DNA of 64,000 nucleotides, taken from NCBI RefSeq assembly GCF_013432195.1, contig NZ_JACCDB010000002.1, forward strand, positions 124,001 to 188,000. Reading direction: 5' to 3'. Under the pieces are notes generated by a model, which was not told where the DNA came from, did not search any database, and worked only from the letters and a program-made list of their open reading frames with translations. Below, one piece after another: positions 23,805 through 39,404 of this stretch (positions are counted from its first letter, which is position 1; each line of letters starts with the position of its first letter). Source of the stretch: Tepidicella baoligensis. Its GTDB lineage: Bacteria; Pseudomonadota; Gammaproteobacteria; Burkholderiales; Burkholderiaceae_C. A program made the translations under genes and the position numbers.

Positions 23805-24673
23805 GTTGCGCGAACGGGTTCAACGTCCCGCAGCAGGCGCTGCGGATGGGAAAAACACAGAAAACGCTGGTGGGTGGCCCGACCAATGGCGCACACCCCG
23901 ACGCGCTCGGCCACTTCAAGCCCCATCTGCGTGATGCCGCTGCGCGACACCACGACCGGCACGCCCATCTGTGCCGCCTTGATCACCATCTCGCTGGTCA
24001 GCCGGCCCGTGGTGTAGAAGGTCTTGTCAGTCCCCTCCATGTCGGCCGGGTTTTGCAGCCACATCCAGCCGGCGATGGTGTCCACCGCGTTGTGGCGGCC
24101 CACGTCCTCCACGAACAGCAGCATGTCGGAACCCCGGAACAAGGCGCAACCATGCACCGAACCGGCCTGCTTGTAGGTCGAGTCCTGCTCACGGATGGTC
24201 TTGACGATCTGGTACAGATCGGACTGCCGCAACTGCGCCGTGGGCGACAGCCGGATGCGGTCCAGTTCGTCGAGGATGCCGCCAAACACGCTGCCCTGCC
24301 CGCAACCGGTCGTGACCACACGCTTGGCCGTGCGCTCTTCGATGTGGTGCAGCCCGCGCCGGGTCTTCACGGCAGCGGCCCCCACCTCCCAGTCCACCGT
24401 GATGGATTCGATGTCGTGCACGGATTCGACGAGGCGCTGGTTGCGCAGATAACCGAGCACCAGCCATTCGGGGTGCCCCCCAAGCGTCATGAGCGTGACG
24501 AGTTCGCGCTTGTCCACATAGACCGTAAGGTCCCGCTCGGCGGGAATGGACAGGGAGCGCCGCTCACCGCACTCGTTGACCACCGTCACGTCGCGCGTCA
24601 GCGGCACGCGTGCCCGCGACAGGCGGGGCAAAGGAAGCTGGAAGGCGGCTTGCTGCGGTTCCGTCAACAACAC
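23786..24673 (-). CDS. fdhD: FdhD, sulfurtransferase for formate dehydrogenase maturation
   Basis: A 295-residue cytoplasmic protein that passes sulfur from a cysteine desulfurase to the bis-MGD cofactor, needed for active formate dehydrogenase. Recognised from VDKRELVTLMTLGGHPEWLVLGYL, VHGCALF, LFVEDVGRHNAVD, and the TTGRLTSEMVIKAAQMGVPVVVSRS motif. The usual Cys-x-x-Cys of the flexible loop reads C124-G-Q-G127, so only the first Cys is present. Starts with GTG at 24673, preceded by AGGAGG at six bases. Last gene of the fdh operon, 27 bp after the cytochrome subunit gene; its 3' end overlaps the convergent GS-like gene by 19 bp. Confidence 0.94.
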   Translation of the reverse strand: MLLTEPQQAAFQLPLPRLSRARVPLTRDVTVVNECGERRSLSIPAERDLTVYVDKRELVTLMTLGGHPEWLVLGYLRNQRLVESVHDIESITVDWEVGAAAVKTRRGLHHIEERTAKRVVTTGCGQGSVFGGILDELDRIRLSPTAQLRQSDLYQIVKTIREQDSTYKQAGSVHGCALFRGSDMLLFVEDVGRHNAVDTIAGWMWLQNPADMEGTDKTFYTTGRLTSEMVIKAAQMGVPVVVSRSGITQMGLEVAERVGVCAIGRATHQRFLCFSHPQRLLRDVEPVRATYTSSM

Positions 24674-24700: not shown

Positions 24701-25885
24701 TCAAACAGCCTTGGCCTTGCCCACAGCGGGCTTGCCACTTGCGGGTGTGCTGCGTTCTGCCGGAATCTTGCCCGCCTTGATGTCGTCATACCAGAGTTCG
24801 TGATGTTCCTTGGCCCAGGTCTCGTCCACATAGCCCGTTTTCATGGCCTGGTAGGCACCTTGCATACCCAGTGTACCCATGTAGATGTGCCCAAGGAACA
24901 TGGCCATCATCATGACCGCAGCCGACGCATGAATCATGTGCGCGATCTGCATGTCGGCACGGAGGTAGGCCAGCCCGGGAATCAGCTTGTCGAGCACGAG
25001 GCCTGAGGCCACGACGATGAAGCCGAGCAGGAACACCCCACCCCAGAAAACGGCTTTTTCACCGGCGTTGAAGCGGTGCGAAGGCACCTCCTGGCCGCTG
25101 AACAGACCTCCCCCCTTGAGCAACCACTGGATGTCATCCTTGCTGGGCAGGTTGTCGCGCAGGAAGGTGAAGAACACGATCACCAGCGACACGGCAAACA
25201 GCGGCCCGACGAAGTTGTGGAGGTTCTTCATCGCGTAGGTCAGCCAGCCAAACAGCGTGCTTCCCATGATGGGCAGCAGGAAGAACTTGCCAAAGGCCAT
25301 GATCAGACCCGAAACCGCGAGGGCGACGAAGGCGAACGCATTCGTCCAGTGAGCGGCGCGCTCGAAAGCGGTGAAGCGCTCGATCTGGCGACCGGTCTCC
25401 TGACCATGTAGACGAATGGGGCCCTTGCCGAAGTAGAACAGCGCAATCGCCACCACCACGATGAGCAGCAACGCGCCTCCGTAGGGGAGAATCACCTCGT
25501 TGCGCACTTGCCGCCAGGCCTCGCCCGCATTGGTCAGACGAGAACCCGGATATTGCACGAAAGGCTGAATGAGCGTGCCGTATTCGGGATAGGGGAAGTT
25601 GGTGACCCCCGTGACACCCTGCCCTACCTGACGCCACATGGGGGCGTTGTTGCCGGGCTGAACCTGCCTGCGCTCCGCGTTCGACTGGTTCATGTAGTTG
25701 GGGTCGGTGTCGGCATCCGGGGCGATCTGGAAGATGTTCGCATTCTGGATGCCGCCTCCAGCCTCGGGCATGGTGCCCGGGGTCGTCGTCTGTGCCACAG
25801 CAACACCGAGACCGACCGCCATGAGGAGCGCCACACACCAGCCCCGCCATGGGCGCAGGGCCGCTGCGTTGAGGAGAGTTCGCAT
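24701..25885 (-). CDS. fdhC: Formate dehydrogenase cytochrome b (gamma) subunit
   Basis: A 394-residue inner-membrane subunit that takes electrons from the FeS subunit to quinone. A cleavable-looking signal (~residues 10-31, ending AVAQ) is followed by a ~100-residue periplasmic stretch (NYMNQSNAERRQVQPG...), then a TM helix (~134-152) and the FdnI-type core: TAFERAAHWTNAFAF with a haem His, LHNFVGPLFAVSL, GEKAVFWGGVFLLGF and AHMIHASAAVMMMAMFLGHIYMG with further haem His. The long N-terminal extension is normal for the betaproteobacterial form. ATG 25885 has AGGAGG five bases before it. Third from the end of the fdh operon. Confidence 0.93.
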   Translation of the reverse strand: MRTLLNAAALRPWRGWCVALLMAVGLGVAVAQTTTPGTMPEAGGGIQNANIFQIAPDADTDPNYMNQSNAERRQVQPGNNAPMWRQVGQGVTGVTNFPYPEYGTLIQPFVQYPGSRLTNAGEAWRQVRNEVILPYGGALLLIVVVAIALFYFGKGPIRLHGQETGRQIERFTAFERAAHWTNAFAFVALAVSGLIMAFGKFFLLPIMGSTLFGWLTYAMKNLHNFVGPLFAVSLVIVFFTFLRDNLPSKDDIQWLLKGGGLFSGQEVPSHRFNAGEKAVFWGGVFLLGFIVVASGLVLDKLIPGLAYLRADMQIAHMIHASAAVMMMAMFLGHIYMGTLGMQGAYQAMKTGYVDETWAKEHHELWYDDIKAGKIPAERSTPASGKPAVGKAKAV

Positions 25886-25898
25886 GGGGTCCTCCTGT

Positions 25899-26144
25899 TC
25901 AGTGGACACGGGTGTATTCGTTCTGACCGTAGGCGGCACGGGCACGCAATTGCTGTTCCCAGCTGGTGCGGTCTCCGGGCTGCCAGCCACGCTCGGCGAA
26001 CTGGCTGGCACCGACACCCTGGTAGGCCGGGGTGCCGGGCTTGACGGCCGCCGTATTCAGATCCTGGGGCACCTCCCCACAGGCGGCCAACAGGGCCACG
26101 CCAGCGGCCACGAAGGCGATTTTCAAGATGCGTGCGCGAATCAT
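25899..26144 (-). CDS. Small lipoprotein within the fdh operon
   Basis: An 81-residue predicted lipoprotein: a short basic start (MIRARILK), a hydrophobic run, and the lipobox LLAAC with the acceptor Cys at about residue 22. The mature ~60 residues are hydrophilic (AYQGVGASQFAERGW...RARAAYGQNEYTRVH) with no recognisable domain. Its ATG overlaps the fdhB stop by 4 bp and has GGAGG six bases ahead, and it is followed 13 bp later by the cytochrome subunit, so it is an integral part of the operon. A role in assembly or anchoring of the periplasmic enzyme is inferred from position only. Confidence 0.75.
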   Translation of the reverse strand: MIRARILKIAFVAAGVALLAACGEVPQDLNTAAVKPGTPAYQGVGASQFAERGWQPGDRTSWEQQLRARAAYGQNEYTRVH

Positions 26145-26743
26145 GAGCGTCCTCCCTGGGCGCTGCCATAGGCAGTGCCCCAACCCCACACTTCGGCCCC
26201 CTTGCCTCGCCGCAGAACCCGGCTGCGGAAGATGTCGGCCACCACATCGCCGTCACCAGCGAGCAGGGCCTTGGTAGAGCACATCTCGGCGCAGGCGGGC
26301 AGCTTGCCTTCGGCCAGGCGGTTGCGACCGTATTTCTCGAATTCGGCCTGGCTGCCGCTGGCTTCGGGGCCGCCGGCACAGAAAGTGCACTTGTCCATTT
26401 TGCCGCGCACGCCGAAAGTGCCCTGGCCTGGGAACTGAGGGGCACCAAACGGGCAGGCATAGCTGCAATAGCCGCAGCCGATGCACACATCCTTGTCGTG
26501 CAGCACCACGCCCTCGTCGGTGCGGTAGAAACAGTTCACTGGGCAGACGGCCATGCAGGGGGCGTCGGAACAGTGCATGCAGGCCACCGAGATGGACTTT
26601 TCGCCCGGCACCCCATCGTTGAGGGTGACCACACGGCGACGGTTGACCCCCCAAGGCACCTCGTGTTCGTTCTTGCAAGCGGTCACACAACCGTTGCACT
26701 CGATGCAGCGTTCTGCATCACAGATGAATTTCATGCGTGCCAT
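26141..26743 (-). CDS. fdhB: Formate dehydrogenase iron-sulfur (beta) subunit
   Basis: A 200-residue subunit with four [4Fe-4S] ferredoxin-type motifs: CIECNGCVTAC, CMHCSDAPCMAVCP, CIGCGYCSYACP and the split CTFC...CAEMC site. It relays electrons from the Moco subunit to the cytochrome b subunit. Compared with E. coli FdnH (about 290 residues) it lacks the C-terminal membrane helix, as in the shorter FdhB forms of betaproteobacteria. 10 bp separate it from the alpha subunit stop; it overlaps the lipoprotein gene by 4 bp. Confidence 0.95.
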   Translation of the reverse strand: MARMKFICDAERCIECNGCVTACKNEHEVPWGVNRRRVVTLNDGVPGEKSISVACMHCSDAPCMAVCPVNCFYRTDEGVVLHDKDVCIGCGYCSYACPFGAPQFPGQGTFGVRGKMDKCTFCAGGPEASGSQAEFEKYGRNRLAEGKLPACAEMCSTKALLAGDGDVVADIFRSRVLRRGKGAEVWGWGTAYGSAQGGRS

Positions 26744-26753
26744 TCGTTGCTCC

Positions 26754-29714
26754 TCATGCGCGCTCGACGTTGCAGATGGTGGTCTTGGTTTCCTGCATCA
26801 TGGTCACGATGTCGTAACCATAGGTGGTGGCGGTGTTGACCGCCTCCCCGCGCACGATCGGCGCTGCACCTTCTGGATACTGCTTGAGCAGATCCTGCCC
26901 TTGCCAGCGACCCGAGAAGTGGAACGGCAAGAACACGGTGGTCTCATCCACACGAGGCGTGACTTGTGCCTGCACATTGATGCGAGCCCCGGTCGGGGTG
27001 GTCACCCACACCCGGTCGCCGTTGCGGATGCCGCGCTGGGCTGCCGTGGCCGGGTTGATCTCCACGAACATCTCCTGCTGCAGCTCGGCCAGCCAGGGAT
27101 TGGAGCGGGTTTCCTCGCCACCGCCTTCGTATTCGACGAGACGCCCGGAGGTCATGATCAGCGGGAATTTCTCGTACACCTTGTCTTCGACGTTCTTTTG
27201 CTGCAGCGTTTTGTAAAGGATGGGCAGGCGCCAGCGGTTCTTCTGGTCGTCGTGACTCGGGTACTTTGCGATCAAATCCGGCCGGGTGCCATAAACCGGC
27301 TCGCGGTGCTGGGGAATAGGATCCGGGAAGTTCCAGACGTAGGCACGAGCCCGGGCATTGCCGAAGGGGTGGCAGCCGTGCTTCATGAACACGCGGATCA
27401 TGGCACCCGTCGGGTCGGTGGTCCAGGTCTTGCCTTCCGCGGCGGCCTGCTCTTCAGGCGTCAACTCGTCCCACCAGCCGAGTTTCTTGAGCAACTGGTC
27501 GGTCAGCATGGGATACCCGGTGGTGATCTCGGCACCCAGTGAATGCGAGCCATCGGCTGCCAACAGGCTCACGCCGTCGCGTTCCACGCCAAAGTTGGCC
27601 CGGAAGTTGCCACCCCCGTCCATCACGTGCTTGGAGGTGTCGTACAGGTTGGGCGAGCCCGGGTGCTTCATCTCGGGGGTGCCGTAGCAGGGCCAGGGCA
27701 GGCCGAAGTAGTCGCCGGTCATGTCGTAGCCGGTTTCCTTGTCGACCACATGGCCCTTGCACTTCAGCGTCTTGATGTCGAAGGCATGCATGTTGCGCAT
27801 GTGAGCCTTCAGGCGTTCGGGGCTGTGCCCGGTGTAGCCGATGGTCCAGACACACTTGTTGATCTCGCGCAGGATGTCCTCGACCACCGGCTCGTCCATG
27901 CCGCCGACCTTCTGCAAACCATAGTTCTTGCAGAGCTCGTTGGCAAAACCCAGGCGCTGGGCCAGCTGGTACATGATCATGTGGTCGCTGCGGCTTTCCC
28001 ACAGCGGCTCGATCACCTTCTCACGCCACTGGATGGAACGGTTGGAAGCCGTGCAGGAACCACTGGTCTCGAACTGCGTGGCCGCCGGCAGCAGAATCAC
28101 CGTGCGGTTGGGGTTCAGATCCTGCGGGTTGCCGGGCATCGCGGCCATGGCGGCCGTCGCCGAGGGGTATGGGTCGATCACCACCAGCAGGTCCAGCTTG
28201 TCCATGGCCCGCTTCATTTCCAAGCCGCGGGTCTGGGAGTTCGGGGCATGGCCCCAGAAGATCACACCGCGCAGGTTGCTGCTCTGGTCTATGGCCTCCT
28301 TGTCCTCGAGCACACCGTCGATCCAGCGCGATACGGTGATGCCCGGCTTGGACATCATGCCTTCGGCGTAACGCGACTGGATCCAGTCGACATCCACTCC
28401 CCAGGTGGCGGCGAAGTGTTTCCATGCGCCCTCGGCCAGACCGTAATAGCCCGGCAGGGAATCGGGGTTGGGCCCGACATCGGTAGCCCCCTGCACGTTG
28501 TCGTGACCGCGGAAGATGTTGGCCCCGCCGCCGCTGACTCCGATGTTGCCCAGTGCGAGCTGCAGGATGCACGATGCGCGCACGATGGCGTTGCCAATGG
28601 TGTGCTGGGTTTGCCCCATGCACCAGACGATGGTGCCCGGCCGGTTCTCGTGCAACATCCTCGCGACCTTGAGTACCTGCTCCTCCTTGACGCCGCAGGC
28701 TTCCTCGACCTGATCCGGCGTCCATTTGGCCATCACTTCCTCGCGCACCTTGTCCATGCCATAGACGCGGTCGCTGATGTACTTCTTGTCTTCCCAGCCA
28801 TTCTTGAAGATGTGGTACAGCACTCCGAACAGGAAGGGGATGTCGGAGCCGGAGCGAATGCGCACGTACTCGTCGGCCTTGGCCGCCGTACGGGTGAAGC
28901 GCGGGTCGACCACGATCATCTTGCAGCCCTGCTCTTTGGCGTGGAGCATGTGCAGCATCGACACGGGGTGTGCTTCGGCAGCGTTGGAACCGATGTACAA
29001 CGCCACTTTGCTGTTTTGCATGTCGTTGTAGGAGTTGGTCATCGCACCATAGCCCCAGGTGTTGGCCACACCCGCAACGGTGGTCGAGTGGCAGATGCGC
29101 GCCTGGTGGTCGCAGTTGTTGGTCCCCCAGAAGCTGACGAACTTGCGCAGCAGGTAGGCCTGTTCGTTGCTGTGCTTGGAAGACCCGATGAAATACATGC
29201 TGTCAGGGCCGCTGGCCTCGCGCAGCGCTTTCATCTTGGCCACGATTTCGTCGTAGGCTTGGTCCCAGGTGATGCGCTGGTAGTTGCCGTTGACCAACTT
29301 CATCGGGTAACGCAGACGGTACTCGCCATGGCCGTGCTCGCGGACGGAGGCGCCCTTGGCACAATGCGCACCCAGGTTGATGGGGGAGTCGAACACCGGT
29401 TCCTGACGGACCCAGACGCCGTTTTCCACCACGGCGTCGACGGCGCAACCCACCGAGCAGTGGGTGCAAACAGTCCGCTTGACCTCGACCTTGCCGGTAC
29501 CGTCGATGGAGCCGCCGGATGCGGCCTCGGCCTTCTTCACGAGCGAGAGTTGAGAGGCCGCGAGGCCGACGCCCAGGCCCAGACCTGAGCGGCGCAAGAA
29601 GGCGCGACGGTCCATGGTGGGCACGGCATGGGCAAAACCGCGCCGAAGGCTGTTGACAAAGCTGCCCGATCCAGCCGAGCCTACGCGATGCCCCGTTTTT
29701 TTGGTCAGCAACAT
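26754..29714 (-). CDS. fdhA: Formate dehydrogenase catalytic (alpha) subunit, Cys form, Tat-exported
   Basis: A 986-residue bis-MGD enzyme oxidising formate to CO2. A ~35-residue extension leads to a twin-arginine signal (MDRRAFLRRSGLGLG, Arg 36-37). The [4Fe-4S] site uses C83, C86, C90 and C118 (CTHCSVGC...GAHCAKG). The catalytic position, a selenocysteine in E. coli FdnG, is Cys208 in ARICHSTTVAG; the conserved His follows directly. Other marks: GSNAAEAHP, MTNSYNDMQN, FFHFSGRWQG-type Moco C-terminal domain. It is fully open with no TGA read-through needed. The start at 29714 has AGAGGT ahead and matches the known long N-terminus of this group. Lies 70 bp after the small Tat peptide gene. 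Confidence 0.96.
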   Translation of the reverse strand: MLLTKKTGHRVGSAGSGSFVNSLRRGFAHAVPTMDRRAFLRRSGLGLGVGLAASQLSLVKKAEAASGGSIDGTGKVEVKRTVCTHCSVGCAVDAVVENGVWVRQEPVFDSPINLGAHCAKGASVREHGHGEYRLRYPMKLVNGNYQRITWDQAYDEIVAKMKALREASGPDSMYFIGSSKHSNEQAYLLRKFVSFWGTNNCDHQARICHSTTVAGVANTWGYGAMTNSYNDMQNSKVALYIGSNAAEAHPVSMLHMLHAKEQGCKMIVVDPRFTRTAAKADEYVRIRSGSDIPFLFGVLYHIFKNGWEDKKYISDRVYGMDKVREEVMAKWTPDQVEEACGVKEEQVLKVARMLHENRPGTIVWCMGQTQHTIGNAIVRASCILQLALGNIGVSGGGANIFRGHDNVQGATDVGPNPDSLPGYYGLAEGAWKHFAATWGVDVDWIQSRYAEGMMSKPGITVSRWIDGVLEDKEAIDQSSNLRGVIFWGHAPNSQTRGLEMKRAMDKLDLLVVIDPYPSATAAMAAMPGNPQDLNPNRTVILLPAATQFETSGSCTASNRSIQWREKVIEPLWESRSDHMIMYQLAQRLGFANELCKNYGLQKVGGMDEPVVEDILREINKCVWTIGYTGHSPERLKAHMRNMHAFDIKTLKCKGHVVDKETGYDMTGDYFGLPWPCYGTPEMKHPGSPNLYDTSKHVMDGGGNFRANFGVERDGVSLLAADGSHSLGAEITTGYPMLTDQLLKKLGWWDELTPEEQAAAEGKTWTTDPTGAMIRVFMKHGCHPFGNARARAYVWNFPDPIPQHREPVYGTRPDLIAKYPSHDDQKNRWRLPILYKTLQQKNVEDKVYEKFPLIMTSGRLVEYEGGGEETRSNPWLAELQQEMFVEINPATAAQRGIRNGDRVWVTTPTGARINVQAQVTPRVDETTVFLPFHFSGRWQGQDLLKQYPEGAAPIVRGEAVNTATTYGYDIVTMMQETKTTICNVERA

Positions 29715-29784: not shown

Positions 29785-29997
29785 TCAGACGCGAGTGGTC
29801 TGGTAATAGCGCTTGACGTGCTCTGACAGCTTGTAGCCGCCTCCGGAACGGGGGGCCGTTGCCGCTGCTGCCGTGGCCTCGGTCTGGACCACCGCCTTGG
29901 GAGCCACGGCGGCAACCGCTGCGACCGCTCCCACGGCACCGGCTCCGGCAAACCAGCGGCGACGGGAAAGGAAATGGGATTTGTTGGGGGTGCCCAT
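29785..29997 (-). CDS. Small twin-arginine peptide of the formate dehydrogenase region (FdhX-like)
   Basis: A 70-residue protein that is almost entirely a Tat-type signal (SRRRWFAGAGAVGAVAAVAAVA) followed by an Ala/Thr-rich linker and a short conserved tail (GGGYKLSEHVKRYYQTTRV). It matches the small 'formate dehydrogenase region TAT target' family found first in such operons; its role is unknown, possibly in membrane targeting of the alpha subunit. GAGGAG lies six bases before the ATG. It is the first gene of the leftward fdh operon, with an intergenic control region of about 400 bp upstream. Confidence 0.85.
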   Translation of the reverse strand: MGTPNKSHFLSRRRWFAGAGAVGAVAAVAAVAPKAVVQTEATAAAATAPRSGGGYKLSEHVKRYYQTTRV

Positions 29998-30188
29998 GCA
30001 TGTCTCCTCAGATGTGGACCACAAACCGCTCCATGCGGCGGTATGAAGTCATGTACATAAACAGCGAATCTACCGCCGGCCGGGAAAGTCAGCAAGGACG
30101 TCAACAGGACGACCGCGCGCGTCCAGGTTAGGCCGCACAATCAGGGCCACGATACAGAGAATGACCGCGGAACGCCCCTCCTCCCGAA

Positions 30189-30204
30189 AGCAATATGCAG
30201 GCCA
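30189..30204 (-). promoter_or_regulatory. Sigma-54-like -24/-12 promoter element facing the fdh operon
   Basis: The minus strand reads TGGCCTGCATATTGCT, against the consensus TGGCAC-N5-TTGCW: invariant GG and GC have the required spacing, and 9 of the 11 defined positions fit. Transcription would start near 30177 and run into the fdhX-like gene. No other good sigma-54 element was found in this gap. Confidence 0.55.
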
Positions 30205-30285
30205 ACAGTGATTGCTTATGAATCGATTTTTACCTTGGGTCACAACCCCGGAAATGGTTTCGGGATTACCCTGAATGTCGACGCT

Positions 30286-30315
30286 TTGTCGCGCCACGAG
30301 ACGACAAGTTGTCGC
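30286..30315. promoter_or_regulatory. TTGTCGC repeat cluster, probable regulator binding site for the fdh operon
   Basis: Contains TTGTCGC at 30286-30292, then a 13-bp palindrome CGACAA-G-TTGTCG at 30302-30314 (the TTGTCGC copy again at 30309-30315, 23 bp from the first). The cluster lies about 80-110 bp upstream of the -24 element, the usual place for an enhancer-type activator site. Nearly the same palindrome recurs at 38020-38034 before the second fdh-related operon. Confidence 0.6.
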
Positions 30316-30402
30316 ATCCATCCAAACACTCGTACCACTGGAGGTCAGCCTCCTCCTGTCTCGAAAACCCCAATTCCCGAGTTTTTTATTCAGGAATAAA
30401 GA

Positions 30403-31827
30403 ATGGAACGTCTGGTGAATTCCCCCACTGCGCCTCCTCTTTCTGATCGATTCAACACCCCTGGTCCGACCGACGGGTGGCCCCACTGGTCCATTCTGGT
30501 GGTCGATGACGAGCAAGGCATGCGCAACTTTCTCGTGAAGGTGCTCGCACCTCGATGCCGCTTCGTCGCCGTGGCGGCCAGCGCTGAAGAGGGGTCCGAG
30601 TGGATGCGCGCCCAGCGGATGGATCTGGTGATCTTGGACATCTCCCTGCCGGGCAAGAATGGCGTGGTCTGGCTCAAGGAATTGAGGGAGCAAGGTTACA
30701 GCGGCGAGGTCATTCTCATCACCGCCTTTGCCGACCTGGAAACGGCGATCGAAGCCTTGCGGGCGGGCGCATCCGACTTCATCCTCAAGCCTTTCCGCAT
30801 TCCACAGATCCTCAACGCCATCCAGCAATGCCACGAGCGCACCCGGCTGCGGCGTGAGAACTACGTGCTGCGGCGCGAAACCAAGCCGATGGCCCGCCGG
30901 TCGGGTTCACCCATCGTGGGCCGTTCTGCTGCCATGCAAGCGGTGCGGGATGCGATCGAGCGCACCGCACCGATGCCAAGCACGGTGCTGCTCACCGGAG
31001 AGTCTGGCACCGGTAAGGAACTGGTGGCCAGAGAGCTGCACGCGCGCAGCGCCCGAGCCGGCGGGCCTTTCGTGCCGGTGAACTGCGCCTCGCTCTCCCC
31101 GGAAGACATGGCCATTGAACTGTTCGGGCATGCCAAGCCAGGCGGCCACGGCAGTGCGCATGCGAAAGACGGGCTCTTCTATTACGCCCAGGGGGGCACC
31201 CTGTTTTTCGATGAGGTGGCCGAACTGCCGCTGCCTGTGCAGGCGGCGCTGCTGCGCGCCATCGAAGACCTGCGGATACGCCCGGTCGGCAGTCAACAGA
31301 CCTTGGCGGTGGACGTGCGCATCGTCGCAGCCACCAACCGCGAGTTGACCGCTGAGGTGGCTGCCGGGCGCTTCCGGTCCGACCTGTACTACCGCCTCAA
31401 GGTGGTGGATATTCATTTACCCCCCCTGCGCACGCACAGCGAGGACATTGCGGACCTGATCAACCACTACATCCACGAATTGGCCCCGCTGCTCGGGGTG
31501 GCCCCTATAGAAGTCTCCCCAGAGGAGCTCCAACTGCTCATGCAATACGGCTGGCCGGGAAACACGCGCGAGCTGCGCAACTTCATCGAACGTTCGCTGA
31601 TCCTGGGCACCCTCAATGTCTCCGCGCTCTATCCGTCCATGTCGGCAGCGTCTACCCGTTTGGCCCACGGCCCCATCGATTTGCAGACACTGGAAAAGCA
31701 GCACATCCTGTCTATCCTGGAGTCGGTGCAAGGCGACAAGACCCGGGCTGCCCAGTTGCTCGGGGTTTCCAGGCGCACGCTGGAGCGGCGCGTTGCAGAA
31801 TGGGGAATGAACTCGCACCACCCCTGA
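30403..31827 (+). CDS. NtrC-family response regulator lacking the GAFTGA loop
   Basis: A 474-residue three-domain regulator: receiver (~30-140; acidic pocket D35/D36, phospho-acceptor D79 in ILDISLPG, T107, K129), AAA+ domain (~165-395; Walker A GESGTGKE at 199-206, Walker B TLFFDEV, sensor and Arg-finger region ATNREL...RFRSDLYYRL) and a Fis-type HTH at the end (TRAAQLLGVSRRTLERR). The loop after ELFGH, normally KGAFTGA, reads AKPGGHGSAHAKDG, so the sigma-54 contact motif is absent. It has AGGA ahead of ATG 30403 and is followed 3 bp later by its kinase gene. Divergent from the fdh operon, it is the obvious candidate regulator of formate dehydrogenase. Confidence 0.9.
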   Translation: MERLVNSPTAPPLSDRFNTPGPTDGWPHWSILVVDDEQGMRNFLVKVLAPRCRFVAVAASAEEGSEWMRAQRMDLVILDISLPGKNGVVWLKELREQGYSGEVILITAFADLETAIEALRAGASDFILKPFRIPQILNAIQQCHERTRLRRENYVLRRETKPMARRSGSPIVGRSAAMQAVRDAIERTAPMPSTVLLTGESGTGKELVARELHARSARAGGPFVPVNCASLSPEDMAIELFGHAKPGGHGSAHAKDGLFYYAQGGTLFFDEVAELPLPVQAALLRAIEDLRIRPVGSQQTLAVDVRIVAATNRELTAEVAAGRFRSDLYYRLKVVDIHLPPLRTHSEDIADLINHYIHELAPLLGVAPIEVSPEELQLLMQYGWPGNTRELRNFIERSLILGTLNVSALYPSMSAASTRLAHGPIDLQTLEKQHILSILESVQGDKTRAAQLLGVSRRTLERRVAEWGMNSHHP

Positions 31828-31830
31828 CCC

Positions 31831-33936
31831 ATGGCCTGGTTCAAGACGCCCCGCTGGATGAACCATTCGGTTCGTCACAAGCTGCTGGCCATCGCTTTGC
31901 TGCCACTGGCCGTCGTCTTCCCGCTGCTGGTACTGGCCCTGATGCTGTGGAGCCATGTGGCTTACGACCGCCTGCTCACCGCCAAGGTGCGCGCCGACCT
32001 GGCGGTGGCCAACGGCTACTTCCAGCAGGTGCTCTACGAGGTGGGGGCAGGCACCCGGGGGGTGGCGATGTCGCTGGCGCTACACCAGGCGCTGGAAGGT
32101 GCCCGTGCGCATGGCGGTGCCCTCGTGGCCCCACATCCGGGCGGGGTGGCGGCATACGGGGATCGATACCCCGACCTGATCGACCTGCACGACTTGTTGC
32201 TGGATGAGCGAGAACGCCTTGGACTCGACATCCTGATACTGGTTCGCCACGGAGAGGCTCCAACCGGCCCACTGAACGGGCCCAAAGACTACAGCGCCAC
32301 GCTTAGGCTGATGTCGCCCTCCGAGCTGGCCGAATGGGGCCCCCACTTGCTGGAACGCACCTCCATTCCCCTGGTCGACACCCTCAATGCCAGCCCCACT
32401 CAACGTCAGATCGAAAACCGGGCCATGGTCATGTTGGCCAGTCTGCCCGTTCCCGATGCCCAGGGGCGTCCCTGGGCCGTGTTGCACGGCGGATTGTTGT
32501 TGAACCAGAACCTGGCGCTCATCGACCACATCAATCGCATCGTGTACCCGGAGGGCTCGCTGCCGTTCGGGAGCCTGGGCACGGCCACCCTGTTCCTGGA
32601 CGACGTGCGCATCTCCACCAACGTGCGCCTGTTTCAGGGCCAACGGGCCATCGGCACCCGGGTCTCTCAGGCCGTGCGTGACGCGGTGCTGGGCCAAGGT
32701 CAGACATGGCTGGACCGGGCCTTCGTGGTGAACGACTGGTACGTGAGCGCCTACCAGCCCCTGCAGGACGCGCGGGGTGAACGGATCGGCATGCTGTACG
32801 TGGGTTACCTGGAACGCCCGTACCGCTGGATGCGTTACGGCATGCTCGGAGTCATGGGTCTGATCTTCCTGGCGGTCATGGCCCTGGCCGCCGTGTTTTC
32901 GGTCCGCTGGGCGCGCAGCATCTTCCGACCGGTGGAACAAATGAACGCCACCATCGAGCGCATCGAGAAAGGCGAGTCCGGGGCCCGCGTGGGCACGATC
33001 GTGGCGCGTGACGAACTCGGCGCATTGGCGAACCACCTCGATCACCTGCTGGACGTGGTGGAGGACAACACGCGCCGGCTGCGGGAATGGGCCCAGACGC
33101 TGGACCTCAAGGTGCAGGAACGCACCCGCGAACTGGAGGCGAGCAACGCCTCGCTGCGGCAGGCCCAGCAGCAGCTCGTCAAATCGGAAAAACTCGCGGC
33201 CATCGGCCAGCTCACGGCCAGCGTCGCGCACGAGATCAACAACCCCATCGCCGTGATGCAAGGCAACCTGGACCTGATCCGCCAGGAACTCGGCCCGGCA
33301 GCCGATCCCGTGCTCGGCGAACTCCGGCTGCTCGACGAACAGGTCGAACGCATGCGGCTCATCGTGACCCAGTTGCTCCAGTACGCCCGACCGACCGAAT
33401 TTGCCGGCTACGTGGACCAGCAGGACGTCAACCAGATCGCCTCCGATTGCCTGGTGCTGGTGGGCCACCTGCTGCAACAGCGACGGATCCGTGTGGAGCA
33501 GGATTGCCAAGCCTCGGCTCGCGCGGGCATCAACCGGCAGGAACTGCAGCAGGTGATCATCAACCTGATGATCAACGCCATCCAGGCCATGCCCGACCAA
33601 GGCTGTTTGACCCTGCGGACGTTCGATTGGGTGGATGACGCCTCTGGCACGACTCTGGGCCCCGTCGTGGAGGTGGCCGACACCGGACCGGGCCTGAGCC
33701 CGGCCGTTATGGAGCGGCTGTTCTCGCCATTCTTCACGACCAAGAACGACGGCAATGGCCTTGGACTCTGGATCAGTCAGGGCTTGGTGGAGCGGTACGG
33801 TGGGCAACTGGAAGCCGGTAACCGGCCCGATGCCCAGGGTGCCGTGTTCCGGTTGCGCCTGTTGACGGAGCCGCATGTGCCCTCCGCAGCGCAAGGGCCG
33901 ACCGGCGATGGCCGCCCCGGTCGGCTCCAGCCCTGA
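31831..33936 (+). CDS. Membrane sensor histidine kinase, partner of the adjacent NtrC-family regulator
   Basis: A 701-residue kinase. One TM helix (~residues 18-41) and a second (~335-357) enclose a ~290-residue periplasmic sensor of the single/double Cache type (WLDRAFVVNDWYVSAYQPLQDARGERIGMLYVGY). HAMP (~358-410), a coiled coil, then HisKA with the phospho-acceptor H467 in SVAHEINNP and a HATPase domain (NLMINAIQAM, VADTGPGLS, FFTTKNDGNGLGLWIS). The signal is not known; formate or a related small acid is plausible from the context since Cache domains bind such ligands. Its gene follows the regulator by 3 bp and is convergent with the TorD-like gene. Confidence 0.92.
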   Translation: MAWFKTPRWMNHSVRHKLLAIALLPLAVVFPLLVLALMLWSHVAYDRLLTAKVRADLAVANGYFQQVLYEVGAGTRGVAMSLALHQALEGARAHGGALVAPHPGGVAAYGDRYPDLIDLHDLLLDERERLGLDILILVRHGEAPTGPLNGPKDYSATLRLMSPSELAEWGPHLLERTSIPLVDTLNASPTQRQIENRAMVMLASLPVPDAQGRPWAVLHGGLLLNQNLALIDHINRIVYPEGSLPFGSLGTATLFLDDVRISTNVRLFQGQRAIGTRVSQAVRDAVLGQGQTWLDRAFVVNDWYVSAYQPLQDARGERIGMLYVGYLERPYRWMRYGMLGVMGLIFLAVMALAAVFSVRWARSIFRPVEQMNATIERIEKGESGARVGTIVARDELGALANHLDHLLDVVEDNTRRLREWAQTLDLKVQERTRELEASNASLRQAQQQLVKSEKLAAIGQLTASVAHEINNPIAVMQGNLDLIRQELGPAADPVLGELRLLDEQVERMRLIVTQLLQYARPTEFAGYVDQQDVNQIASDCLVLVGHLLQQRRIRVEQDCQASARAGINRQELQQVIINLMINAIQAMPDQGCLTLRTFDWVDDASGTTLGPVVEVADTGPGLSPAVMERLFSPFFTTKNDGNGLGLWISQGLVERYGGQLEAGNRPDAQGAVFRLRLLTEPHVPSAAQGPTGDGRPGRLQP

Positions 33937-33951: not shown

Positions 33952-34569
33952 TCAGTCGAGCATGTCGAAACCCTGTGCCTCCACGCTCATGAAGGCCCGC
34001 GTGAAGCCCGCCAGCGCGGCATAGAAGCGGCTGCGTGGATGGGCGGCCAGCGCGTCGCACATGTCGTTGACCCAGGGCTGCAAGTGCTTCGCAAAAAAGG
34101 CTTGCTGCCGGGTGAGGTTGGAGACGGCTACGTCCTCACCCGCGATGAGGAAACGCATGACTTCACACAGGTAGGCAATGTGGTCTTCGGTTTCCGGCAT
34201 CTGCTCGTTGCGCGTCAGGCCCAGATCGGCCAGGTCGGAACGCAGCGCGACCAGGGGCTTTTCGTTCAGGAAGCCGCTGAGGTAATGCGAGCCGAAAAGG
34301 TAGATTTCGGGTTTGCCGACGCCGCCGAACAGGGTGTCGAACTCGTCGGCGATGATCGCGTCGTCCAGCTCGCGGGCCGTGGCCACCAGGCCACGCCACG
34401 GCTCTTCCAGGAAAGCCCCGGCGGCCGGCGCCTCGGTCACGGACACGCGAAGCTGGGCCAGCAATTCGGGCGCCGGTGGCGCATAGTAGAGGGCCGCCAG
34501 CAGGCCGTAGATTTCGGCACGCGCGGTTTCCTCGTCCAGGGCGGAGGTCACGGGAATGTGGGGTGTCAT
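33952..34569 (-). CDS. TorD/DmsD-family chaperone for the formate dehydrogenase
   Basis: A 205-residue all-helical cytoplasmic protein of the NarJ/TorD/DmsD group of redox-enzyme maturation chaperones. It shows the EIYGLLAALYYAPP start, DEFDTLFGGVGKPEIYLFGSHYLSGFLNEKPL (the conserved E-x-x-x-Y-LFG motif), and ETEDHIAYLCEVMRFLI. Such proteins hold the Tat signal of a Moco enzyme until the cofactor is inserted; the likely client is the alpha subunit encoded 4 kb away, whose Tat signal would be its ligand. Last gene of the DUF3305-DUF3306-polyferredoxin operon. ATG 34569 chosen; the frame stays open a little upstream. Confidence 0.88.
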   Translation of the reverse strand: MTPHIPVTSALDEETARAEIYGLLAALYYAPPAPELLAQLRVSVTEAPAAGAFLEEPWRGLVATARELDDAIIADEFDTLFGGVGKPEIYLFGSHYLSGFLNEKPLVALRSDLADLGLTRNEQMPETEDHIAYLCEVMRFLIAGEDVAVSNLTRQQAFFAKHLQPWVNDMCDALAAHPRSRFYAALAGFTRAFMSVEAQGFDMLD

Positions 34570-34582
34570 GGGGGCTTTGTGC

Positions 34583-36757
34583 TCAAAGGTCGGTGATCTT
34601 GACTTCGTTACCGGTGTAGATATCGATGACGCGGCAGTCACCGCACATTTTCAGCCGCTCCGCCGCCGCGCCCTGGAACATGGCATGCCCGGACAGTCGG
34701 CCCAGCATGGCCTCGACCCCCTTGAGGGTGCCAAACGGCTTACCACAGCGGATGCAGGCATAAGCCGGCTGTTCATTCACCACGCGCGGCTGGCGCCGCT
34801 GCTCCGACAACCAGAAGCGCGGCTCCAGCCGGATGGCATGCTCCGGACAGGTTTTGACGCACAGCCCGCACTGCACGCAGTTTTTCTCGACGAAGCGCAG
34901 TTGGGGCACGGCCGGGTTGTCTTGCAACGCCCCCGCCGGGCACGCACTGACGCAACTGAGGCACAGCGTGCAGGCATCGGGGTTGACATGGACGCTGCCC
35001 AAGGGAGCTCCAGCAGCCGGCAGCCCAATGGCCGCGGGCAAGGCGCTGGCGGGCGCCTGCTTCACCAAGTGCTCCAGCGCCAGCTCCAGCGTGCTCCGTT
35101 TGGAGGCTTGCACCGCATACGTGGCCGGCTGGCGAACCGTGACCGCCGGGGCCACCCGCACCGCCTGGTCGACGTGGGCGATGTCTCGCGCATCCCGGGC
35201 CTGGATCAGCCGGAAGTGCTCACCGCCGTAACCCAGCCCCTGCAACAAGGCTTCGCCCACCGCCATCTGCTCCTGCAGGGCGCGAACGTAATCGGGAGCC
35301 TCCTCGTCGGTCACGAGGACGAACACCTGACTGGCACCGTAGGCAATGGCGCTGAGCCAGACCTCCAGGCCCAGGCTGGCCGTGTGCCAGCAAGATACGG
35401 GGATCAGCCGGGCCGGGACGCCGCGCACCGAAGCATCGAGCTGAGCCGCCCGCCCCCAGTCGTTGACGAACCGCTGCCCGGCCTGCTCGCTGTGCAGCAA
35501 CAATGCGGCATTCTGCCCCCCGGCATGGGCGTAGGTGGTCAGCAGGGTACGCAGCCGCTGCCCCTGATGGCCCACACCCGGATAGGCATAGCTCAGCGCG
35601 CCGGTGGGGCACACCGTCGTGCAGGCGCCGCAGCCCACGCACAAATGGGGGTTGACGTGGATCTGCTGCGCATCACCCCGTACCCCCACGCTGCGCTGCC
35701 CCCCGAGAGGGCTCTGGTCAGCTTGGGGCGGCCCGGCGCTGACCAACCGACTCGTGATGGCCGACGCCGAGCAGATCTCCACGCAGGCATTGCAACCGAC
35801 CTTCTCGTTGCGGCCATGGGCGCAGATGTTGGGCTTGTACTGGAAGAAGCGCGGTTTTTCGAATTCGCCCACGGCATCGCGCAGCTTGACGATGGCTGCC
35901 ATGTGCGCATCGGCACCGGCAGCCGCAGGCAGATGCAGGTAGCCCTGCGGCAGGGCATGGCGGGTCAGTGCGGGCGAGTCGCGAAGGTCCAGCACCAGGT
36001 CGAAGGTGTCCTGGTGGGTCACGGGCTCGCGCTGGAAGTCGATGGCACCCGGGGCCTCGCACACGCGCACGCAGTCGCGGTGGCTGCGGCAGGCGCTGAG
36101 GTCGATCTGGTAGTCCAGCCCGATCGCGCCTTCCGGACAAGCCGCGACACAGGCATTGCAGCGGGTGCACAGGTCCAGCGCGATGGGGTTGCTTTCCGTC
36201 CATTCGACCTTGAAGGCCCCCAGCCAGCCGTCGAGCCGACGCAACTCACCGGCCAGCACGGGATAGCGCCGCTCCTGCGCCCCGGCTCCACCGGTGGCAA
36301 ACAGGGTCACGTCCAGCACATCGTCCAACTGTGCAGCCAGTGACTGCGCCCGATCGAGTGGCCCGATCACGAGCAGGCGGCCGGCGCTGCGGTAGGTGAC
36401 CGTGGGCACCGGGTCGGGGTCGGGCAGCCGGGCCGCCGCGAGCAAGGCCGCCATTTTCGCGGTGGCCTGCGTACCTTCCTTGCCCCAGCCACCGGTTTCG
36501 CGCAGGTTCACGAACCGGATGGGGCGCTCATCCAAGGCAACGGCGCCTTCGGTCTGTTCGGACAGTTCGCTGAACAGGCGCTGCTCCTGGGTGCAGGCCA
36601 CGATCAAGTCCTCCCGGCTGCGGGTGGCTCGCTGAAACGCTGGCGCTTCGCGGCGACACAAGGTCGTGTGGACGGTCAAGGGTTCGTCGAGCACGCGGCT
36701 CAGGGCCTCGCCGTCCAGCGGCAGGGTGCGGTTGCAGTTGCAGATGAGCGTGGTCAT
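34583..36757 (-). CDS. Polyferredoxin-like 4Fe-4S protein of the formate dehydrogenase accessory operon
   Basis: A 724-residue cytoplasmic protein with at least four, possibly five, ferredoxin-type [4Fe-4S] motifs: CTRCNACVAACP, CNACVEICS, CVGCGACTTVCP, CTLCLSCVSACP and CVQCGLCVKTCP. It also has an N-terminal CNCNRT site and a C-terminal pair CIRCGK...CGDCR of zinc- or FeS-type spacing. The middle (~420-560) has no Cys motifs and resembles a flavodoxin-like or HdrA/MvhD-type region only weakly. Proteins like this accompany the DUF3305/DUF3306 genes near formate dehydrogenases; their function is not known. A soluble electron input for cofactor assembly or a second electron outlet are both possible. 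Overlaps DUF3306 by 4 bp. Confidence 0.82.
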   Translation of the reverse strand: MTTLICNCNRTLPLDGEALSRVLDEPLTVHTTLCRREAPAFQRATRSREDLIVACTQEQRLFSELSEQTEGAVALDERPIRFVNLRETGGWGKEGTQATAKMAALLAAARLPDPDPVPTVTYRSAGRLLVIGPLDRAQSLAAQLDDVLDVTLFATGGAGAQERRYPVLAGELRRLDGWLGAFKVEWTESNPIALDLCTRCNACVAACPEGAIGLDYQIDLSACRSHRDCVRVCEAPGAIDFQREPVTHQDTFDLVLDLRDSPALTRHALPQGYLHLPAAAGADAHMAAIVKLRDAVGEFEKPRFFQYKPNICAHGRNEKVGCNACVEICSASAITSRLVSAGPPQADQSPLGGQRSVGVRGDAQQIHVNPHLCVGCGACTTVCPTGALSYAYPGVGHQGQRLRTLLTTYAHAGGQNAALLLHSEQAGQRFVNDWGRAAQLDASVRGVPARLIPVSCWHTASLGLEVWLSAIAYGASQVFVLVTDEEAPDYVRALQEQMAVGEALLQGLGYGGEHFRLIQARDARDIAHVDQAVRVAPAVTVRQPATYAVQASKRSTLELALEHLVKQAPASALPAAIGLPAAGAPLGSVHVNPDACTLCLSCVSACPAGALQDNPAVPQLRFVEKNCVQCGLCVKTCPEHAIRLEPRFWLSEQRRQPRVVNEQPAYACIRCGKPFGTLKGVEAMLGRLSGHAMFQGAAAERLKMCGDCRVIDIYTGNEVKITDL

Positions 36758-37383
36758 GGTTGTCGGGGAGCTTGGGGCGGGTCGGATTCCGGAGCCGGTT
36801 CAGGGTCAGGCGTCGCAACCGCCTCGGGTGGCTGGCCCAGGGGAGCGGGCCGGGGGGCAAGTTCGCTGGATGGCACCGCAACGGGCGAGGGCTGCTCGTC
36901 CTGTGGTTCGTCGAACAGCTTCATGAATTGGGCACTCACGAGTTTGCGGGCCAAGCTGGCGGGCAACGGGTCTGGCTTGGAATAGTCGTCGATGTAAATG
37001 TCCAACCCGTCCATTTCATTGAAGAACGGATCGGAAAAGAGTTTTTTCATCGCCGCGTTGCGCACATCCGGCGACACCTCGGGCGCCACAAAACGGCTGA
37101 AATCGGCATCGGGCGTCAGGGCGCGCACATCGTCCAGCGTGGGCAGGGGTGGTGCGGCTTCGGTAGGGCGCTCTGCCTCCGGCAAGGGTGGCGCAATGGG
37201 CTGCCCGGGGGCAGCTGGCGGCTCGACGGCCAAAGGGGCGGAGGGGGGGGTCGGGATGGGTGCGGCAGCTGCGGGGGTTGCGCCCACCGCCTGCCTCGTG
37301 GGCCGGTCCACGGCCTGTTCCTCCTGCCTGGCCTGGGCCTTGCGCCGTGACCAGCGGCTGAAAAAACCTTCGTCGTCAGCCAT
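36754..37383 (-). CDS. DUF3306 family protein
   Basis: A 209-residue protein with the DUF3306 core DEGFFSRWSRRKAQAR at the start and FVAPEVSPDVRNAAMKKLFSDPFFNEMDGLDIYIDDYS in the middle; between them and at the end lie Pro/Ala-rich low-complexity linkers (~50-85 and ~170-209). No membrane segment. Function unknown; found almost only with DUF3305 and formate dehydrogenase genes, so a maturation role is probable. Its ATG at 37383 lies within the DUF3305 gene (8-bp overlap) and its stop overlaps the polyferredoxin start by 4 bp. Confidence 0.88.
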   Translation of the reverse strand: MADDEGFFSRWSRRKAQARQEEQAVDRPTRQAVGATPAAAAPIPTPPSAPLAVEPPAAPGQPIAPPLPEAERPTEAAPPLPTLDDVRALTPDADFSRFVAPEVSPDVRNAAMKKLFSDPFFNEMDGLDIYIDDYSKPDPLPASLARKLVSAQFMKLFDEPQDEQPSPVAVPSSELAPRPAPLGQPPEAVATPDPEPAPESDPPQAPRQP

Positions 37384-37993
37384 GACGGTCTCCACCACGC
37401 ACCTTGTCGGTGGTGATGCTCACGGGATGACCGAAGCGGTCGGATAGCGACTGAAAACTGGCCGGGCGCTTGCGCCGCTTGGGCTCTGGCTGGTAATGCA
37501 GTTTGGTGAAACCGGCCATCCAGTCGATCACGCCGGATGGAGCGGGCACCTGATCCACCCGCTCCTGAGCGTCGAGCCAGCGGCCGGCATCGTGATAGCT
37601 CACGGTGACGATCAGGGGCTGAGGGAAGGCGTCGTCGGACTGCTCGTTGTCCAGCCGCCACATCACCCAGAAGCACGGATGCGGGGAAGTCAGGTTCAGG
37701 TAATAACCCTCCGCGTCGTCGCGGTGCAGCGTCACCTCGAAACCCGGATACAACCAGTGCGTTGCCCCTTTGGGCAACGCGCCCTCGGGCTCGATGGGGA
37801 TGGGGGCACTGGCAGCACCCGGTGCGTCCAACGCAGGCAACGGGGGCAAGGTCTCCTGGGGAACCACATCGGCCAGTACCCAGCGGAAGGCCTGCCAGCG
37901 GCTCATGGGGCCTTGAACCGGTTCACGGCGCATGATCACGCCCACCTGAAGGGTGGGGTGAATGGCGCCGATGGTCTCCTTGGATGCGTCCAT
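37376..37993 (-). CDS. DUF3305 family protein
   Basis: A 205-residue protein with the DUF3305 pattern LQVGVIMRREPVQGPMSRWQ and WVLADVVP at the start, then LYPGFEVTLHRDDAEGYYLNLTSPHPCFWVMWRL and VTVSYHDAGRWLDAQERVD. A basic C-terminal stretch (EPKRRKRP) follows. Function unknown; always seen near formate dehydrogenases. The start is uncertain: ATG 37993 lacks a good ribosome site, and a later ATG at 37933 would remove part of the conserved start. First gene of a four-gene operon; a 15-bp palindrome lies 27 bp before this ATG. Confidence 0.85.
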   Translation of the reverse strand: MDASKETIGAIHPTLQVGVIMRREPVQGPMSRWQAFRWVLADVVPQETLPPLPALDAPGAASAPIPIEPEGALPKGATHWLYPGFEVTLHRDDAEGYYLNLTSPHPCFWVMWRLDNEQSDDAFPQPLIVTVSYHDAGRWLDAQERVDQVPAPSGVIDWMAGFTKLHYQPEPKRRKRPASFQSLSDRFGHPVSITTDKVRGGDRHG

Positions 37994-38019
37994 AGCGATG
38001 GAACTGTACGGCATTGGCC

Positions 38020-38034
38020 GCGACAATTTGTCGC
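38020..38034. promoter_or_regulatory. Perfect 15-bp palindrome before the fdh accessory operon
   Basis: GCGACAA-T-TTGTCGC, a perfect 7-1-7 inverted repeat. It lies in the 100-bp gap between the boxA stop and the DUF3305 gene. The core CGACAA-N-TTGTCG is shared with the site at 30302-30314 in front of the fdh operon, which points to one regulator acting on both. Confidence 0.6.
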
Positions 38035-38093: not shown

Positions 38094-39404
38094 TCAGTAC
38101 GTCTCCAGATGCAGGCGCCCCTGCTTCCTCAGCTCGGCGCCCAGAGCCTCCCAGTCCAGTCCCGCGGCCTGGGCCACATCGCGCAAGGCCATGACCACGC
38201 CCTCTTCCATGCTCTTGAGACCGCAGACGTAGAAGTAGGCGTTCGGGTCCTGCAGCAAGGGCACCAGGTCGGCGGCGCGCTCGCGCATGACATCCTGCAC
38301 GTAGCGCTTGGGCTGGCCGGGTACACGGCTGAACGCGAAGTTGATGTCGATGAAGTCCTTGGGGAGCTTCTGCAGCGGGCCAAAGTACGGCAGCTCCTGT
38401 GGCGTGCGCGCGCCAAAGAACAGCATCAGCTTGCCACCTTCGAACTTGCCGCTGGCGCGCAGGCGGCGGCGCCATTCGGTCATGGCACGCATGGGGGCAC
38501 TGCCGGTACCGGTGCAGATCATGACGATGCTCGACCGTGGATGGTTGGGCATGAGGAAGCTGGCACCGAAGGGGCCGATCACCTCTACCTGGTCACCCAC
38601 CTTCAGGTCGCACATGTAATTGGAGCCGACGCCACGCACGGGGTTGCCGTCGTGGTCTTGCAGCACGCGCTTGATGGTGAGGGACAGGTTGTTGTAGCCG
38701 GGGCGCTCGCCGTTGCGCGGGCTGGCCACCGAATACTGGCGGGCGTGGTGGGGCTTGCCGCGTTCGTCCAACCCCGGCGGGATGATGCCGATCGACTGCC
38801 CCTCCAGCACCGGAAATGGCGTGTTGCCAAAGTCCAGAACGATGTGGTGGGTGTCGTAGTCGGAACCCACCTCCGTGACGCGCACGTTGCCGGTCACGGT
38901 GGCGGTGATGGATTTCTGCGCCGCCTTGGGACCGTAGAGGTTGGTGTAGGGATGTGCGGCCGACCACGGGGGCACCGTGGCTCCGTAGGTGGCACTGTTG
39001 AACACCGCGCCCTGCTCCGCAGCCCCCACCGATGCCCACGACGTCTGGGCGGCCGCCGAAGCCAAGGCTGCCTGGGCGGCCTCGGCCGCTGCCACCGCCG
39101 GGTCTGCGCCGCCCCCCAGAGCCGCCAGCGCCTCCTCACTCCAGGCCGCGGGCAGCTCGTCCCAGCCGAGCTGCTCTTCCACGCTGTAGGCCCGATCGCG
39201 CGGCACGGTGCGCCAGTTGTCGATCGAGCCGGTCGGGCAAGGCGGCACACAGGCCATGCAGAGATTGCACTTCTCCGCGTCCACCACATAGTTGCGCGCG
39301 TCGTGGGTGATCGCGCCCACCGGGCAGGTGGCCTCACAGGTGTTGCAGCGGATGCAGATCTCGGGATCGATCAGGTGCTGCTGGATCAGGACGGCGGTGC
39401 TCAT
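38094..39404 (-). CDS. boxA: BoxA, reductase component of benzoyl-CoA 2,3-epoxidase
   Basis: A 436-residue iron-sulfur flavoprotein that passes electrons from NADPH to the oxygenase BoxB. The N-terminus has two [4Fe-4S] motifs, [16 protein letters not shown] and [16 protein letters not shown], then an Ala-rich linker (~residues 85-125), and an FNR-type reductase domain: FAD motif [21 protein letters not shown] for NADP, and a terminal LHLETY. Ferredoxin-linker-FNR order and length fit BoxA. It is the last gene of the boxCBA operon, 4 bp after boxB. Confidence 0.95.

Follow-up and report, generated by a model that had tools for sequence, protein, structure and literature searches.

Among NtrC and its relatives, NtrC of Rhodobacter capsulatus works from upstream tandem sites, and TyrR and DhaR are built without a receiver domain. 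The GAFTGA loop is the defining feature of σ54 activators and is needed by most of those tested (PMC7175178, PMC3162934), about 110 homologues with deviations from the motif having been counted in 2011 (PMC3162934). The closest described systems are the NtrB–NtrC pairs of R. capsulatus and Caulobacter crescentus, which are reported to be kinase-coupled, to lack GAFTGA and to work at σ70 promoters, VpsR being a further GAFTGA-less relative (PMC10274813). The same source describes R. capsulatus NtrC as needing ATP binding and using σ70 polymerase, and C. crescentus NtrC as needing its Walker motifs and acting at σ70 promoters. HTH mutants of the Caulobacter protein are described as raising σ54-dependent transcripts despite the missing GAFTGA (PMC12421884), so even in Caulobacter some connection to σ54 may survive.

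The regulator described here shares with R. capsulatus NtrC its response-regulator character, AAA+ module, HTH and lack of GAFTGA, and with C. crescentus NtrC its kinase coupling and the absence of GAFTGA, which is deleted there (PMC10274813). The original prediction had regarded a kinase-coupled, loop-less NtrC controlling formate oxidation as an uncommon type; a kinase-coupled, loop-less NtrC is not new in kind, since both of these systems precede it. The differences lie in loop, target and promoter. R. capsulatus NtrC is reported to have a loop deletion and a nitrogen target, whereas here the loop is replaced in register, the predicted target is formate oxidation and a −24/−12-like element is kept; C. 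crescentus NtrC likewise has a nitrogen target, and a retained −24/−12 main target was not found described in the accessible parts of PMC10274813 and PMC12421884. VpsR, TyrR, DhaR, HupR and YplP are enhancer-binding-protein relatives in which GAFTGA is similarly defective, but they have other inputs and targets (PMC3162934). A literature search, mostly without subscription papers, found neither this regulator nor repeated loop loss within one orthologous group. Loop-less NtrC-like proteins are thus already known one at a time; what is new here is a regulator that retains its inherited promoter element and belongs to an orthologous series in which many stages of loop loss are represented. Its relatives, unlike R. 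capsulatus NtrC, include loops at every step between GAFTGA and complete deletion.

The locus lies in the window, by which we mean the whole 64,000-nucleotide stretch of DNA analysed, from a bacterium with a 2.87 Mb genome that is close to Tepidicella xavieri (regulator 88% identical). Start codons and small open reading frames were chosen mechanically. The regulator and its kinase are made up as follows.

30403–31827, + strand: NtrC-type response regulator, REC–AAA+–HTH_8, 474 aa (translation and domain search)
30997–31020, + strand: Walker A GESGTGKE, intact, residues 199–206 (sequence)
31138–31155, + strand: PGGHGS where GAFTGA is expected, L1 loop, codons 246–251 (translation and alignment; model pLDDT <50 at residues 247–251)
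31831–33936, + strand: sensor histidine kinase, sCache_3_3, HAMP, HisKA and HATPase_c, 701 aa, 3 bp after the regulator (domain search)

The regulator has the architecture of an NtrC-family enhancer-binding protein, with a receiver (residues 31–141), a Sigma54_activat AAA+ module (PF00158; residues 171–338, 192 bits), a lid and a Fis-type HTH (residues 429–467), while scoring below the cut-offs of the curated NCBIfam equivalogs AtoC, NtrX, NtrC and ZraR (best, AtoC at 349.6 bits versus 714). The 16 residues that follow ELFGH, AKPGGHGSAHAKDGLF, equal the normal loop in length, and GAFTGA is therefore replaced in register by PGGHGS, so that the defining feature of σ54 activators is missing. The absence of Phe-Thr had been predicted correctly, and the predicted retention of Walker A, Walker B and the receiver was borne out: the receiver Asp, GESGTGKE and LFFDE are all intact, as are the R-finger (FRSDLYYRL) and sensor II (GWPGNTREL). 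The protein consequently carries the sequence features of the GAFTGA-less group, loop lost and ATP-binding motifs kept. Its predicted structure has a confident core and a disordered loop tip.

That the altered loop is an artefact of sequencing or assembly was rejected, and we give it a negligible chance, because frame and length are kept and a near-identical altered loop, PGSHGS, occurs both in a named isolate genome (L012, T. xavieri DSM 19605, 88% identical) and in a separate MAG (L011, 93% identical). Among these three regulators (L011 and L012 are the same genes as L145 and L146) dN/dS is 0.07–0.09, which together with the recurrence of the loop in relatives points to a functional gene under purifying selection, neither error nor pseudogene. 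The host genome carries one rpoN and four other full-length enhancer-binding proteins, all with GAFTGA or GAYTGA: an NtrC that clears its cut-off, a NifA-like GAF protein that does not, a PAS protein and a response regulator beside a sensor kinase, which we take to be PilR-like.

The genes around the regulator are as predicted, layout and family searches both giving a neighbouring kinase and divergent formate dehydrogenase (fdh) genes. The fdh operon faces away from the regulator, and a second, accessory operon converges on the regulator–kinase pair.

29785–29997, − strand: small ORF with a twin-arginine-like motif, 70 aa, first past the divergent promoter region (role inferred from position)
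26754–29714, − strand: formate dehydrogenase alpha subunit, 986 aa (TIGR01591, 478.3 bits, below the cut-off of 666.25)
26141–26743, − strand: FDH3-type beta subunit (NF038355, above cut-off)
24701–26017, − strand: formate dehydrogenase gamma subunit, cytochrome b (TIGR01583, above cut-off)
23786–24673, − strand: FdhD-like sulfurtransferase (TIGR00129, 137.1 bits versus a cut-off of 140.9)
37376–37993, − strand: DUF3305 gene, start of the accessory operon (family search)
36754–37398, − strand: DUF3306 gene (family search)
34583–36757, − strand: polyferredoxin-like protein with several 4Fe-4S motifs (domain search)
33952–34641, − strand: TorD-family chaperone, Nitrate_red_del (domain search)

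The gamma subunit has about 210 extra N-terminal residues ahead of its cytochrome b domain. Directly upstream of the accessory operon lies boxA (38094–39404; benzoyl-CoA 2,3-epoxidase subunit, above cut-off), a match to which is also present in 12 other loci.

To place the altered loop we compared orthologues. Searching 399 genomes of the family, an even sample of a larger group, yielded 78 matches with E ≤ 1.8e-122, whereas all other listed hits had E ≥ 2.1e-98 and were mostly close to 40% identical; an order search of 399 genomes found orthologues in other families as well, and 20 regions were taken from its hits. The tree, calculated with the loop columns omitted, has 101 rows, of which 75 form one clade that includes the window (100*), the rest being 22 further orthologues and 4 distant rows. 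The tree and the class counts omit L128, whose regulator is broken across two frames, and L132, which lies at a contig end; L114 was retained although its regulator frame continues into the kinase. We scored as intact those loops with Ser for Thr (L089, L161, L209 and L213) or GAFTGS (L203). A kinase match is present in 72 of the 75 clade loci.

Within the 75-row clade, 23 regulators have GA[FY][TS]GA, 10 have GAF[AP]GA and 42 have lost the motif. The outgroup orthologues, by comparison, carry GA[FY][TS]G[AS] in 22 of 22 rows, exactly GA[FY]TGA in 19. The lost state requires eight changes on the tree, seven of them forced by starred branches and one of the eight being the distant outgroup row L135; the Thr-substituted label likewise requires eight. 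On this tree the loop was lost repeatedly from a GAFTGA-bearing ancestor, in about seven separate changes. The end states differ, comprising in-register replacement (the window), short deletion (L151 and L158), complete loop deletion (L121, L129 and L131) and insertions (L109 and L122). In the window's own clade of nine (99*) every member has lost the loop, and what replaces it varies in sequence and length, being four residues shorter in L151, L158, L160 and L162, while the form G-[GS]-[HQ]-G-S is common to the window, L145, L146 and L147. Alignment with orthologues therefore gave an ambiguous answer to the original proposal: many keep GAFTGA, which had been expected to speak against it, yet the loss is real and repeated. 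In practice, a PF00158 match by itself is no safe basis for calling a protein σ54-dependent in more than half of this clade, 42 of its 75 members having lost the motif and a further 10 having Thr replaced.

We then asked what the loop-less proteins retain. Across the 42 loop-less rows the receiver Asp and the R-finger are present in all, and Walker A, Walker B and sensor II in 41 each, L095 being the sole exception for these three. Sensor I is more variable, with Asn in 30 of the 42 and His in 7 of the other 12; the canonical NtrC of the host genome also has His there. Estimates of dN/dS were 0.05–0.32 in 13 loop-less pairs, not all independent, and 0.08–0.26 in five loop-intact pairs, shared ancestry being uncorrected in both. 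Motif retention and low dN/dS make ATP handling and DNA binding look selected for once the σ54 contact loop has gone. Loss of rpoN as a cause of loop loss was rejected, rpoN being found in 39 of the 41 loop-less genomes examined; the two without a match are incomplete (79% and 89% complete). Plain decay, in which the loop was lost as σ54 activation of fdh ceased to matter and the promoter element is a relic, would account for parallel erosion to many end states, complete deletion and insertions included, and for L095, where Walker A, Walker B and the sensor motifs have changed too. We consider this very improbable given the low dN/dS, the preservation of the Walker motifs in all but one of the 42 loop-less rows and, as described below, the operators that persist in 24 of 25 loop-less fdh-linked loci and the conserved promoter element of the window's clade.

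Two regulators deserve separate mention. That of L095 (G341) has Walker A SESGTGKE, DG at Walker B and changed sensor motifs, with receiver Asp and HTH kept, and is apparently losing its ATPase. In L114 (G056) there is no stop between regulator and kinase and the HTH is changed, which may be a frameshift or a fusion.

A pattern scan returned three candidate operators in the window.

30302–30314, no strand assigned: operator 1, the perfect palindrome CGACAANTTGTCG, one of two in the genome (pattern scan)
30279–30291, − strand: operator 2, CGACAAAGCGTCG, 10/12, 23 bp from operator 1 (pattern scan)
38021–38033, no strand assigned: second perfect operator, CGACAAATTGTCG, upstream of the accessory operon (pattern scan)

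The genome (2,874,557 bases) holds only these two perfect sites, upstream of both fdh operons; with one mismatch allowed there was no genome-wide enrichment (7 sites versus 23 for the reversed pattern). A candidate operator matching at least 11/12 was found in 44 of the 51 fdh-linked clade loci (intact 16/19, Thr-substituted 4/7, lost 24/25), where three control palindromes were found in none. The same threshold was reached in 10 of 24 clade loci with another or more distant neighbour and in 1 of the 22 outgroup loci, whose sites are weaker and, in L126, L201, L206 and L208, paired 33 bp apart. The two perfect candidate operators at the fdh operons identify formate oxidation as the regulator's predicted target, and in this respect the proposed tie between regulator and formate dehydrogenase was supported.

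Facing the fdh genes, the main promoter region contains a further element.

30189–30204, − strand: −24/−12-like element TGGCCTGCATATTGCT facing fdh, 10/12 to consensus, 87 bp from operator 2 (consensus scan)

Its −24 half is weak, with TGGCCT for TGGCAC. We counted such elements in 48 of the 51 fdh-linked loci (L087, L150 and L165 have no operator and were left out), requiring at least 9/12 within 200 bp of the operator, a score reached in only 1 of the 48 loci by a reverse-strand control on the same stretches. The element is present in all eight scanned loci of the window's loop-less clade, the window included, and lies 87 bp from operator 2 in the window, 88 bp in L145, L146 and L147 and 98–119 bp in the other four; L148, a clade member with no fdhA on its contig piece and so uncounted, has a 10/12 match. 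Loop-intact clade loci have it in 15 of 19 cases, 10 of the 15 at 86–89 bp from the second-operator position and in both halves of the clade. Elsewhere it occurs in 2 of 4 Thr-substituted loci, in 2 of 3 other loop-less loci and in none of 14 loci of a separate, 22-row loop-less clade, so that overall it is present in 10 of 25 loop-less loci and absent from 4 of the 19 that are loop-intact.

When members of the window's clade were aligned as two separate sets of four genomes, all eight consensus columns proved invariant, although four of the eight are required by the search itself, against 2 of the 8 other columns within the element and a background of about 26%; other 16-column stretches were equally conserved in 6 of 303 and 3 of 251 cases. 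Invariance of the consensus columns makes the element look maintained in the window's clade although the loop has gone. No σ70 consensus promoter was found by scan at 29950–30460, and σ70 scoring by operator offset across the window's clade gave a best mean of 5.3/12. An inverted repeat, AAGCAAT...ATTGCTT (30188–30217), spans the element in the window, L145 and L146 and is a possible site of another regulator.

These features bear on whether the regulator could still open σ54 polymerase at fdh through its substitute L1 loop or another surface. Both operators and the element stand at the ancestral 87–88 bp in the window, L145, L146 and L147, the same four that have the loop form G-[GS]-[HQ]-G-S in common; conservation of the consensus columns extends to both halves of the window's clade; the catalytic motifs are conserved; and the Caulobacter HTH mutants are reported to raise σ54-dependent transcripts without GAFTGA (PMC12421884). 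Nevertheless we think such activation distinctly unlikely, since loops in the window's clade differ in sequence and length, the modelled loop tip is disordered and GAFTGA mutants mostly fail (PMC7175178, PMC3162934). That selection has kept operators and −24/−12 contacts in this clade after loop loss, together with the precise 87–88 bp spacing in four genomes, with a GAFTGA-less regulator opening a σ54 promoter non-canonically, is doubtful to the same degree; were it true, GAFTGA would not be strictly required in nature.

We also compared the fates of loop and promoter across the tree. Joint loss of the loop and the −24/−12 element was unsupported: presence of the element changes only four times on the tree, and independent pairs mostly showed no promoter difference (p = 1; 5 to 7 pairs, fewer than 6 of them informative). 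In the window's clade the comparison reads as the loop having changed first. On a neighbouring branch (support 87), L170 keeps GAFTGA without the element, and there the promoter may have changed before the loop. A subgroup of five in the 22-row loop-less clade shares TTG-N17-xxTAAT some 24 bp past the operator, with four exact copies and a single differing base in L101, and none of the other combinations among the 225 of offset and spacer scored better there. As a σ70 promoter it is suggestive only, because over all 13 loci tested of the 22-row clade no σ70 offset rose above a mean of 4.5/12 and 12 loop-intact loci also reached an offset mean of 4.5/12. The distance from operator to small-ORF start is about 130–155 bp in 7 of 14 loci of this clade (where the ORF is readable) and about 255–355 bp in the window, L147, L158, L149, L153, L094 and L173.

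The accessory operon presents a different arrangement.

38003–38008, − strand: TACAGT, σ70-like −10 element, 12 bp past the operator and 9 bp before the ATG (sequence reading)

No −24/−12 element was found by scan between this operator and the gene, one 9/12 match lying inside the gene. A DUF3305 match is present in 43 loci, and a scan of 300 bp in each gave an operator scoring 11/12 or better in 13 of them. The gap from operator to TAnAnT is 12–13 bp in 7 of these 13, six of them loop-less (the window, L145, L146, L147, L109 and L116) and one loop-intact (L149); it widens to 35 bp in L165 and to 48 bp in L167, and L105, L110, L111 and L124 are laid out otherwise. Such an operator was not found in 5 of the 9 members of the window's clade (L148, L151, L158, L160 and L162), and TAnAnT-N8-11-ATG occurs in 16 of the 43 loci, 7 of which have no operator. 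With the operator patchy, the gaps varied and the −10-like motif also present without it, activation at this site is a candidate role for the regulator. To judge from the loop-intact L149, use of a σ70-type promoter by the regulator may predate loop loss, and that would go some way to account for the protein's retention.

Two further observations concern the same region. The DUF3305 genes of the window (37991–38008), L149, L153, L155, L164, L165 and L167 look leaderless, with TACAGT or TACATT 9–11 bp before the ATG, with and without an operator. In the loop-less loci L110 and L111 two operators 22 bp apart lie about 227 bp upstream of DUF3305, away from the −10-like element.

A site 12 bp ahead of a −10 element is where PhoB-type activators act, and an operator that overlaps the −35 region is in a position typical of repressors. 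Since the accessory operator would lie over the −35 region, repression could equally well be its function. The overlap would suit a division of labour in which another GAFTGA-bearing activator fires the fdh −24/−12 promoter from solution or from elsewhere, the regulator described here only repressing, poising or shaping the promoter. Four other full-length GAFTGA or GAYTGA activators and one rpoN are available in the genome for this, and the −24/−12 element is kept; none of the four was linked to fdh in this analysis, however, and by eye their HTH regions are unlike that of the regulator. We regard such an arrangement as possible but unlikely.

The reading we lean towards, with slightly better than even confidence, is that the regulator is a dedicated, kinase-coupled controller of respiratory formate dehydrogenase, with ATP- and phosphorylation-dependent DNA binding and contact with the housekeeping polymerase. 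Its ancestor was a normal σ54 enhancer-binding protein, whose σ54 contact loop has since gone. The neighbouring kinase would phosphorylate it, leading to ATP-dependent oligomerization on CGACAANTTGTCG sites, and the bound oligomer would control the housekeeping polymerase by contact instead of remodelling σ54. The clearest case would be the accessory operon, with 12 bp separating its operator from the σ70-like −10 element; the inherited −24/−12 element at the main fdh promoter could reflect basal use, use by another activator or slow loss. Action with σ70, as originally predicted, is thus suggested at the accessory operon and in the related loop-less clade, but not at the main fdh promoter, where a −24/−12-like element stands at the ancestral spacing and a σ70 consensus promoter was not found.

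Loop-intact proteins, single-residue losses (GAFAGA and GAFPGA), scrambled loops, insertions and full deletions here belong to one orthologous group, many of them with operators and promoter. With such a graded series, how an enhancer-binding protein leaves σ54, and what keeps its ATPase selected, become testable by promoter and protein swaps.

The outgroup provides the canonical counterpart. In L126, and by layout also in L201 and L206, the same regulator and kinase stand beside a divergent formate dehydrogenase of the FDH-N type (identified by family search in L126 only) with two weak operators (9–10/12), and unlike the window these loci keep GAYTGA and a −24/−12 element (9–11/12), which is the canonical σ54 design. 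The match facing FDH-N in L126 is 9/12. Over ten outgroup loci (L126, L127, L128, L201, L203, L205, L206, L208, L209 and L217), whose neighbours are similar by layout with weak sequence similarity, the best −24/−12 match facing the enzyme is 9–11/12 and the best facing the regulator 0–9. The FDH-N alpha gene of L126 (L126:9190–12264), beside the same regulator, is split into 199 and 825 aa around an in-frame TGA, presumably at the position expected for selenocysteine; L201, similar in layout, has an in-frame TGA too.
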